DNA from: Thermorudis peleae
Lineage (GTDB): Bacteria; Chloroflexota; Chloroflexia; Thermomicrobiales; Thermomicrobiaceae
DNA length: 64,000 bases
Direction of reading: 5' to 3'
Assembly (NCBI RefSeq): GCF_000744775.1
Contig: NZ_JQMP01000004.1
Location: 558,001-622,000, forward strand
Below the pieces are notes generated by a model, which was given only the letters and a program-made list of their open reading frames with translations, had not been told where the DNA came from and ran no database searches. The first letter of the stretch is position 1. Each line of letters opens with the position of its first letter. Positions 2 to 16,010 of this stretch are shown piece after piece. The translations under genes and the position numbers were made by a program.

Positions 2-1837
2 GTCAAAGCACTGACGGGGATTGACCCAGATCGACTGCGTGAAGAAAAAGAACGCGAAATGACGATTGACCTCGGTTTTGCTTGGCTCACGTTGCCAAGC
101 GGCCGACGGGTCAGCATGATCGATGTGCCCGGCCATGAACGCTTCATCCGCAATATGCTGGCTGGAGTCGGTGGCTTCGACGCAGCGCTCCTCGTTATTG
201 CAGCTGACGAAGGGCCAATGCCCCAGACACGCGAGCACTTGGCTATTCTTGATCTTCTCGAGATTCGCCAGGGTATTGTTGCGATCACCAAACGTGACCT
301 TGTCGAGCCAGACTGGCTTGAGCTTGTGATGAATGAAACGATTGAACTGCTCCAAGGTACGACACTTGAAGGGGCACCGCTCATCCCAGTCTCGGCGATC
401 ACTGGCGAAGGCTTGGCGGAACTCATCCAGACGCTGGATACACTGCTGGCGACGCTTCCACCACATCCAGCAGACGGCAAGCCGCGCCTCGCAGTCGATC
501 GCGTCTTTACCATAGCGGGCTTTGGCACCGTTGTCACTGGCACACTTCGCGATGGGCCGCTTAGCGTTGGCCAAGAGATTGAGATTCTGCCTGCCGGGAA
601 ACGCGGGCGCATCCGCGGTTTACAACGCCATCGGGAAAAAGTTGAGCATGCCTCTCCTGGCGCCAGAACGGCGGTGAACATTAGCGGCATAGCCGTCGAG
701 GAGATCAGTCGAGGAGATGTGCTCACGATCCCAGGCTGGCTTACTCCAACCCAGCGGATCGACGCCCGGATCCGTTTGCTGGCAGATGCTCCAGCCATCC
801 TCGAGCAAGATGATGAAGTGATGCTCTTCATCGGGACAAGCGAGACGCTTGCACAACTCACGTTGCTGGATGCGGAGAAGCTCACCCCAGGCGATACTGG
901 TTGGGTCCAGCTCCGCCTGCGTAAACCGGTCGTCGCCGTTCGTGGGGATCGTTTCATCCTTCGTCGCCCCTCACCAAGTGCGACCTTGGGAGGCGGTGTG
1001 GTCGTGGACGCACACCCGCCGCGTCACCGGCGCTTTCATCCCGCAACAATTGCGACACTCGAACTGCTCGCTCGTGGTGAACCAGTGGAACTCGTCCGCC
1101 ACGCGCTCGCTGAGGAACCACGTGACGTTGCGACATTAACCCGGCAATTGACATTGCATGAGCACCATGTAGCGGACGCCCTTGAGGTACTGCAAGCACA
1201 AGGCGAAATCATTGCACTCGTATCCCCAACTCCACACACGCCGACGCTTTACCTTCAGCGGGAAGCGCTCGAAGCATGGCGTAGCCGTCTTGTTGCACTG
1301 TTAGCTGATTACCATCAACAGTATCCCTTGCGCCGTGGCATGCCGAAGGAAGCTGCCCGTAGCCAGCTCGAGATTGCACCGCGGGCGTTTGATGCACTTG
1401 TCGCAACATTCGCTGGCATGGGAGCAATCGTTGACGATGGTGATGTCCTCCGCCTGCCAACACACGCGATTCAATTGACTCCACAACAAGAGGCAGCAGC
1501 TCAGCGGTTGCTAGCCGCGCTGCATGAGACACCCTATACGCCACCGTCACCTTCGACGCTTGGTGTGGATCCAGAACTCGTCAATGCCCTGATTGAGCTT
1601 GGATACATCGTTCGTGTCGACGAAGATATCGTTTTCCCAACCGATGTTATGCAGGAAATCGAGCAAACGGTCCTGACGCTCATTGACGCAAACAATGGCC
1701 TGACGCTCGCGCAGTTCCGGGACCATTTCAATACGAGCCGCAAGTATGCACAGGCAGTTCTTGAATATCTCGATCGAAAGCGAGTGACACGTCGTGTCGG
1801 TGACGTACGAGTACGATATGCGCAACCCCAAAGCTAA
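2..1837 (+). CDS. selB: Selenocysteine-specific elongation factor SelB (5' end outside window)
   Basis: SelB is the EF-Tu-like GTPase that delivers Sec-tRNA(Sec) to the ribosome at UGA codons followed by a SECIS hairpin. The frame is open from the left edge, so roughly the first 20 residues including the P-loop are missing; the first visible residues run VKALTGIDPDRLREEK, then DVPGHERF (G3), ITKRD (G4) and SAITG (G5). EF-Tu-like domains 2 and 3 follow, with a C-terminal half of winged-helix type that in SelB binds the SECIS RNA. About 611 residues are visible, which fits a full-length SelB less its N-terminus. The likely selenoprotein near 14.4-15.1 kb shows that this gene has a target. The gene overlaps the next one by 20 bp. 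Confidence 0.95.
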   Translation, partial: VKALTGIDPDRLREEKEREMTIDLGFAWLTLPSGRRVSMIDVPGHERFIRNMLAGVGGFDAALLVIAADEGPMPQTREHLAILDLLEIRQGIVAITKRDLVEPDWLELVMNETIELLQGTTLEGAPLIPVSAITGEGLAELIQTLDTLLATLPPHPADGKPRLAVDRVFTIAGFGTVVTGTLRDGPLSVGQEIEILPAGKRGRIRGLQRHREKVEHASPGARTAVNISGIAVEEISRGDVLTIPGWLTPTQRIDARIRLLADAPAILEQDDEVMLFIGTSETLAQLTLLDAEKLTPGDTGWVQLRLRKPVVAVRGDRFILRRPSPSATLGGGVVVDAHPPRHRRFHPATIATLELLARGEPVELVRHALAEEPRDVATLTRQLTLHEHHVADALEVLQAQGEIIALVSPTPHTPTLYLQREALEAWRSRLVALLADYHQQYPLRRGMPKEAARSQLEIAPRAFDALVATFAGMGAIVDDGDVLRLPTHAIQLTPQQEAAAQRLLAALHETPYTPPSPSTLGVDPELVNALIELGYIVRVDEDIVFPTDVMQEIEQTVLTLIDANNGLTLAQFRDHFNTSRKYAQAVLEYLDRKRVTRRVGDVRVRYAQPQS

Positions 1838-13953: not shown

Positions 13954-14247
13954 ATGCAGTTCGGGACGTTCCTCTTGATGCTGGCGCTCAGCTATGCCTT
14001 TGGTGTGCTGTGGTATGACTTGCTGCCGGGCAAGCTGTCGATGAAGCCCTGGCGGGTGGCGGCGTATCCGTTCCTCGGCATGTGGGTGGCTGAAGTCTTC
14101 TTCCACCGCGGTCCTGCCTTCGGCGACCTGCACCTGATTCCGCTGGTCATTGGTTCACTCGTTGCAGTCATTATTGACTGGATTATCACGGCGGCTCGTC
14201 ATCCAGCGAGCGTGCCGGATTACGAGGCGCGGGCAACTGCTGCGTAA
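13954..14247 (+). CDS. Small membrane protein of unknown function
   Basis: A 97-residue protein with three hydrophobic segments (residues about 3-24, 32-50 and 60-82). I do not recognise a family. The ATG has a strong AAAGGAGG site and a promoter about 80 bp upstream, and a clear terminator follows, so it is a real monocistronic gene. The charged C-terminus (ARHPASVPDYEARA) is likely cytoplasmic or disordered. Confidence 0.75.
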   Translation: MQFGTFLLMLALSYAFGVLWYDLLPGKLSMKPWRVAAYPFLGMWVAEVFFHRGPAFGDLHLIPLVIGSLVAVIIDWIITAARHPASVPDYEARATAA

Positions 14248-14285: not shown

Positions 14286-14340
14286 GCAAGCATCCGGGTC
14301 GTGAGAAGCGACCCGGATGCTTGCATTTTGGATACTCACG
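14286..14340. terminator. Bidirectional intrinsic terminator
   Basis: A perfect 16-bp inverted repeat, GCAAGCATCCGGGTCG and its complement at 14319-14334, with a short loop, followed by ATTTTG on the plus strand. It lies between two genes that converge on it (13954-14247 and 14357-15055) and can end both. Confidence 0.9.
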
Positions 14341-14356: not shown

Positions 14357-15055
14357 TTAGCGTTGACCAGCGTGATCTGCCTCGGGCGGACGAACAGCTG
14401 CCTCAACCGCAGCAACAAACGCTTCCTCAGGTCGTGCGCCTTCAAGGCGAAGCCGTTCGTTAATAACAATCGTCGGCACGGCGTAGACTTGATAGCGCTG
14501 CGCCAGATGCGGGAATTCCGCTACTTCAATCACATCAGCGGTGACCTTCTCGCTCTCAATCGCCATCATGTGCGCCAACCTGGCGGCACTTGGGCAGTGC
14601 GGTCAAGTTGGAGTAACGAAGACTTTAATATGCGCCGGTGCAGGGAGCTTCGCTAAGGTCTCACGGCTGAGGGGAGTCAGCCGTGTTGTGCCGCGAGAGA
14701 GATCGGCCAGATCCTCAATGAGCACGGCGAATTCATAGCCCGCCGGCAGGCCTACATAGCGAACAGTGCCAGCGTTCTTGCCTGAGAAGACCGCCGTAGG
14801 AATGTCCGTCACGCCAGCCGTTCGGGCCTCAGCCTGTGCTTGCAGAAAGTCGACAACCTCAAGCTTCACTTTCTCTGAGAGCTGAGCAAGCTCACTATAC
14901 AATTCGTTCGCTTCTCGACATGTTGCGCACTCGTATCCTGGTAGTTGCAACTGGGCAAGCCGTTGGGTATAGAGCGTAATGGTGACTGGGTCAACGAGTT
15001 CTTCAGCAAAACGCTTCCGCAAGTAGTCTTGATCGCGCGCTGAGAGTAGTGGCAT
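14357..15055 (-). CDS. Glutaredoxin-like two-domain disulfide oxidoreductase, predicted selenoprotein (UGA at codon 151)
   Basis: The gene runs from ATG 15055 (GGAGGGCGGGATC ahead of it) to a stop at 14357-14359 if the in-frame TGA at 14605-14603 is read as selenocysteine. Two thioredoxin folds are in tandem, as in protein disulfide oxidoreductases of thermophiles. The first has C43-A-T-C46; the second reads KVFVTPT-U151-P-H-C154-P, then continues with family sequence including the cis-Pro loop AVPTIVIN. The UGA stands exactly where the nucleophilic cysteine of CPxC should be, and 82 codons of normal sequence follow. A hairpin 14-33 nt after the UGA fits a bacterial SECIS, and selB is in this window. 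Total 232 residues including Sec. Reading it as two separate genes would destroy the second active site. Confidence 0.9.
14570..14589 (-). promoter_or_regulatory. Candidate bacterial SECIS hairpin
   Basis: Starting 14 nt after the UGA, arms GTGCCGCC and GGCGCAC pair (seven base pairs with one bulged C) around the loop AGGTT. Loop sequence, bulge and distance resemble the E. coli fdhF element, whose loop also reads AGGU and sits about 19-21 nt from UGA. It lies wholly within coding sequence, as bacterial SECIS elements do. Confidence 0.75.
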
Positions 15056-15078
15056 GATCCCGCCCTCCTTTCCCATGC

Positions 15079-15108
15079 AGTATACCCCTCTAGGCTATTT
15101 TGCACCAA
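15079..15108 (-). promoter_or_regulatory. Predicted promoter of the selenoprotein gene
   Basis: On the minus strand TTGGTG (15108-15103), 18 nt, TATACT (15084-15079). A weaker plus-strand candidate (TTGCAC, 17 nt, GATATA) for the divergent DUF72 gene overlaps it, so the two genes may be controlled together. Confidence 0.5.
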
Positions 15109-15143
15109 GATATGCAGAGCACGATATACCGAGGGAGGAACAA

Positions 15144-16010
15144 ATGGGCGAGTTACGGATTGGCACCTCGGCATGGCACGATCACCAAGGGTTCTACCCG
15201 CCGACGCTTTCGTCAACTGAGCGACTCCGGTTTTACGCCCAATACTTTCCCGTCGTCGAGGTCAATAGCACGTACTATCACTTACCAAGCGTGCATACCG
15301 TTGAAGGATGGGTTGAGCGGACTCCACCGGGGTTTCTTTTCCACGTGAAACCGCCTCGTTTGCTAACACACACACCAGAGCACCCTGGAGCACCATCACC
15401 TGCCTTTGACCCGAACGTTGCTCGAGCATTTCGCGAGATCGTTAAGCCCTTGCAAGAAGCTCGAAAACTCGGCGCGTTGACCTTCCAATTTCCGCCATCG
15501 TTTCGCAACACTCCGCAACACTGCGAGTATCTCAAACGATTACGGGAATTCTTCCCCGATCATCTTATTGCTATCGAATTTCGCCGGCGAGACTGGCTGG
15601 ATGAACGTCATGCGGAACGCACACTTGCACTACTTCAGGCACTCGGCTATAGCTTCACGATGGTCGATGAGCCACAAGTTGGGATCGGAAGTGTTCCACC
15701 TGTCTATGCTGTCACGAATCCTCAACTCGCCTTAATCCGCTTCCACGGACGAAACGCGGAGAAGTGGTACCATGTTGGAACGTCAAGCACTGAGCGTTTC
15801 GATTGGAACTACCAACCAGCGGAGCTTGAGGAGTGGCGCCCTCGGATCAACCGCGCCCTGGCTGACGCACACGCCGTCCACGTCTTGTTCAACACCAATG
15901 CCGGTAACCAGGGACCGCGTAATGCCTTTCTGCTGATGGATGTACTTGGTGTCCCACACCCACCACCGCCTTGGGAACATCTAAGCCAGCCGCCACTCTT
16001 CTCAGAGTAG
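15144..16010 (+). CDS. DUF72 family protein
   Basis: A TIM-barrel-like DUF72 protein: IGTSAWHDHQGFYPP at the N-terminus, YFPVVEVNSTYY, FLFHVKPPRLLTH, FPPSFR and LIRFHGRN follow the family order. Its biochemical role is unknown. The start at ATG 15144 follows GAGGGAGGAAC; the frame extends upstream into the divergent promoter region but without family sequence. 288 residues. Its last 9 bp overlap the convergent LysR gene. Confidence 0.88.
   Translation: MGELRIGTSAWHDHQGFYPPTLSSTERLRFYAQYFPVVEVNSTYYHLPSVHTVEGWVERTPPGFLFHVKPPRLLTHTPEHPGAPSPAFDPNVARAFREIVKPLQEARKLGALTFQFPPSFRNTPQHCEYLKRLREFFPDHLIAIEFRRRDWLDERHAERTLALLQALGYSFTMVDEPQVGIGSVPPVYAVTNPQLALIRFHGRNAEKWYHVGTSSTERFDWNYQPAELEEWRPRINRALADAHAVHVLFNTNAGNQGPRNAFLLMDVLGVPHPPPPWEHLSQPPLFSE

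Follow-up and report, generated by a model that had tools for sequence, protein, structure and literature searches.

The window analysed here, a 64,000-nucleotide stretch of the Thermorudis peleae genome, carries a predicted selenocysteine (Sec)-containing protein disulfide oxidoreductase (PDO) gene on the minus strand and the 3' part of a selB gene on the plus strand. The relevant features are as follows.

14357..15055, minus strand: coding sequence of the putative Sec-containing PDO, 232 amino acids with two thioredoxin folds, assigned by homology
14918..14929, minus strand: first-domain active-site motif C-A-T-C, codons 43-46, read from the frame
14603..14605, minus strand: in-frame UGA, codon 151, assigned as probable Sec from the UGA/Cys column of the homologues; it opens the second active-site motif, U-P-H-C
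14573..14585, minus strand: putative apical hairpin of a bacterial SECIS, CGCCA-GGU-UGGCG, enriched in UGA forms
2..1837, plus strand: selB, Sec-specific elongation factor (TIGR00475), 5'-truncated at the edge of the window

The minus-strand frame 15055-14357 consists of 150 codons, a UGA, 81 sense codons and a TAA at 14357. The continuous frame, the ATG at 15055, the CATC motif, VFVTPT-UGA-PHCP at codon 151 and the AVPTIVIN segment described in the original prediction were all confirmed on re-reading. Its count of 82 codons after the UGA holds as a total, of which 81 are sense codons and the last is the stop. The UGA is the only one in the frame (VFVTPT-U-PHC). In the second CxxC motif it stands in place of the attacking Cys, the first of the pair; this is the third of the four active-site cysteines, and not the second active-site Cys as had been proposed. 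The start codon at 15055 matches the M-P/A-I-L/I starts of homologues, and GGAGG is found immediately 5' of it. The neighbours of the PDO gene are a divergent gene at 15054-16010 and a small convergent one (13954-14247). The predicted terminator beside the stop is present as a T-tailed hairpin (14286-14324); however, it is oriented in the plus direction and is thus assigned to the convergent gene, although the inverted repeat could be used by both.

Translation table 11 reads UGA as a stop, in which case the product would be a one-domain protein of 150 residues, and the remainder of the frame a decaying remnant or untranslated. An open run of 82 codons behind a stop is expected about 10% of the time under a dinucleotide model of the window, and 21 of the 101 long ORFs in the window have such a run behind them. 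Thus, open runs of this length are not rare in this GC-rich DNA, and the frame by itself is weak evidence for read-through. The read-through is significant because homology covers the whole length of the read-through protein. The full-length sequence matches the NCBIfam model TIGR02187 (PDO_seleno_TRX) with 238.5 bits against a cut-off of 185 (E 4.6e-71, residues 7-219 of 232), and the solved archaeal PDOs 1J08 and 1A8L also match over their full length (E about 1e-37), with a Cys aligned to the UGA. Alignment with these two structures gives two thioredoxin folds, with the motifs CATC at residues 43-46 and UPHC at 151-154, and on this comparison the protein is a member of the PDO family with two predicted thioredoxin folds. 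The N-terminal domain of AhpF is likewise a double thioredoxin fold and is related at the profile level (TIGR03140); however, the protein scores far below the AhpF cut-off (53 bits against 502.9) and, at only 232 amino acids, is without the flavoprotein reductase domain, so that identification as AhpF was rejected.

When 400 Chloroflexota genomes were searched with the TIGR02187 profile, 102 proteins scored above the cut-off, counted among the matches listed. Exactly one internal TGA is found in 49 of these, and the other 53 have no internal stop. None of the 102 carries TAA or TAG. The codon at this position was read in 53 loci, those listed being the best-scoring ones and three of them repeats of loci on contigs already represented. 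In all 53, Bacillota included, it is TGA, TGC or TGT, which is the Cys-or-UGA pattern that the original prediction had set beforehand as its check. Among close homologues of the same family that span the site (L003-L014), all have TGA but one, which has Cys. A sequencing error, or a nonsense mutation in a single strain of an ordinary Cys-type PDO, would require only one base change (TGC or TGT to TGA), but the same UGA recurs in independently assembled genomes from five genera of the family, as well as in other families and phyla, making this explanation extremely unlikely. Comparison across genera also bears on the reading of the UGA as a true stop. Identity is 50-53 of 66 residues after the UGA against 64-77 of 110 before it, substitutions after the UGA are mostly at third codon positions, and UGA recurs in this one column over many genera and phyla without ever being replaced by another stop codon. 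With the downstream sequence conserved in this way, termination at codon 151 is very unlikely.

A tree of 50 PDO proteins calls for some 5-6 Sec/Cys switches, and in it the Thermorudis protein shares a clade with three Sec homologues from a different genus. The single Cys form among the close homologues belongs to a Thermomicrobium sister species (L003, genome G013) and is 70% identical over 221 residues; its residue 151 is Cys (TGC), and the bases downstream no longer form the hairpin. The simplest reading of the tree is that this Cys is a reversion from Sec. Presence of SelA and SelB was rejected as a feature separating this Cys species from its Sec sisters, as G013 still has both, and the switch thus lies in the PDO gene rather than in loss of the Sec system. 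Four Chloroflexota genomes (G217, G265, G165 and G096) have two PDO copies each, of which one carries an internal TGA and the other is free of internal stops; these genomes lend themselves to a comparison of the Sec and Cys forms within one cell.

SelA, SelB, SelD and a tRNA-Sec with anticodon UCA are all encoded in the Thermorudis genome. SelB (G000:C4:557957-559807, in the window's genome) scores 332.9 bits with TIGR00475, above the cut-off, and in eight relatives selB and the PDO gene share a contig and lie within about 7-18 kb of each other. SelD (L075, G000:C3:56074-57009, outside the window) has an in-frame UGA of its own in HCAG-U-AGKLGP and is therefore likely to be a selenoprotein itself, as SelD is in many bacteria. 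UGA-151 might instead be decoded as an amino acid other than Sec (Trp, or another through near-cognate read-through). However, Cys is the sole replacement of UGA among the homologues, the genome has the SelA, SelB, SelD and tRNA-Sec set, and Trp would destroy the CxxC chemistry, so that such decoding appears quite improbable. The column of Cys and UGA, together with the full Sec machinery, upholds the original reading of the gene as encoding a selenoprotein.

The putative SECIS has five pairs and a GGU loop, with the stem starting 17 nt and the loop 22 nt past the UGA. A criterion was set after inspection of the data: a compact hairpin whose loop has G within its first two bases and lies 16-24 nt past the UGA. 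Of the 21 distinct UGA forms, 20 have such a hairpin, compared with 5 of the 27 Cys forms (Fisher p 6e-8, kinship ignored). Outside the family, the numbers are 10 of 11 and 5 of 26, respectively (Fisher p 8e-5, again ignoring kinship). One UGA form, L063, is without a hairpin under the chosen criterion. A compensatory change of one pair from C-G to G-C, with both substitutions synonymous, is seen in L057, L067, L071 and L073, and possibly represents one event. When synonymous codons are shuffled, an equally good hairpin arises in 7% of shuffles for the Thermorudis sequence and in 1-37% over single sequences; being short (five pairs) and often reached by shuffles, the hairpin is weak evidence for any single sequence. 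The free energy of the best hairpin was tried as a separator of UGA and Cys forms and rejected (Mann-Whitney p 0.22), separation being obtained only with the compact G-loop hairpin at the set distance. An Rfam scan of the gene region gave no match at the hairpin; its only hits were to two eukaryotic families, both below threshold and attributable to chance.

Comparison of frame, homology, UGA/Cys exchange, machinery and hairpin points to a gene that almost certainly encodes a Sec-containing PDO of the thermophile type, in which UGA-151 would be decoded through SelB and tRNA-Sec with the hairpin, Sec would be the attacking and Cys154 the resolving residue. The product is predicted to be a cytosolic PDO in which the CATC and U-P-H-C motifs belong, respectively, to the first and second of two tandem thioredoxin folds. 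SelB and Sec-tRNA(UCA) would insert Sec at codon 151, aided by the hairpin just 3' of it. At the second centre, the Sec151 selenolate most likely makes the first nucleophilic attack on substrate disulfides, and Cys154 would then resolve the selenylsulfide; the CATC centre of domain one may relay electrons. The protein is predicted to be redox-active. By analogy with other Sec/Cys thiol oxidoreductases, such as selenoprotein thioredoxins and glutaredoxins (PMC13188914), Sec would give the second centre a higher reactivity. Archaeal PDOs receive electrons from thioredoxin reductase and deliver them to peroxiredoxin, among other proteins (review PMC7278568), and homology with these makes a role as general thiol-disulfide carrier the most likely one.

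Among possible electron donors, no thioredoxin reductase above the TIGR01292 cut-off is found in the Thermorudis genome or in most relatives, and a search of the Thermorudis genome found no ferredoxin-thioredoxin reductase. As the Thermorudis genome is about 97% complete, this does not prove absence of a canonical reductase, and a divergent one scoring below the cut-off is possible. The best TIGR01292 match, L080, is without CxxC and resembles the ferredoxin-NADP reductase type. A tentative and rather doubtful suggestion is that the Sec-PDO serves as a central hub of thiol redox and takes its electrons from a source other than a classical thioredoxin reductase. Elsewhere in the genome, outside the window, a flavoprotein resembling CoA-disulfide reductase (L084, G000:C4:321511-322359), below the TIGR03385 cut-off, has an in-frame UGA in SYSA-U-GLPY. 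This fits the UGxP CoA-disulfide reductases, a known selenoprotein family (PMC13188914), and L084 is a conceivable redox partner of the Sec-PDO.

Standard translation would end the PDO gene at 150 residues, and the Sec reading corrects this gene model. The Sec form is common in Chloroflexota, at 49 of the 102 sampled copies, with several switches between Sec and Cys. This frequency and the repeated switches make the PDO family a good natural series on the benefit of selenium to a thermophile disulfide enzyme.

The protein had been described as a new-looking selenoprotein; however, Sec forms of this family have been reported since 2006. In that year, Zhang et al. listed two selenoproteins of the type 'homolog of AhpF N-terminal domain', in Carboxydothermus and Symbiobacterium (PMC1794560), reviews of 2022 (PMC9312934) and 2026 (PMC13188914) tabulate the selenoprotein family as TIGR02187 with UxxC, and the NCBI model itself is named 'seleno'. 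As these already cover the Sec forms, the Thermorudis protein adds to a known selenoprotein family and is not a new one. A literature search on selenoproteins in Thermomicrobium found nothing on the PDO gene, and what is added here is modest: the presence of the family in Thermomicrobiaceae, and its switches between Sec and Cys. The archaeal and Aquifex PDOs (1A8L, 1J08, 2AYT and 2YWM) have the same layout of two folds and two motifs, with full or near-full-length homology, but carry Cys at the site of the predicted Sec in the Thermorudis protein. The published Sec members (Grx-like domain protein, ABB15282.1; Carboxydothermus hydrogenoformans and Symbiobacterium thermophilum) are from a different phylum than the Thermorudis protein (Thermomicrobiaceae, Chloroflexota), and are likened to it by architecture and motif, sharing the same TIGR02187 architecture and the same U-x-x-C.
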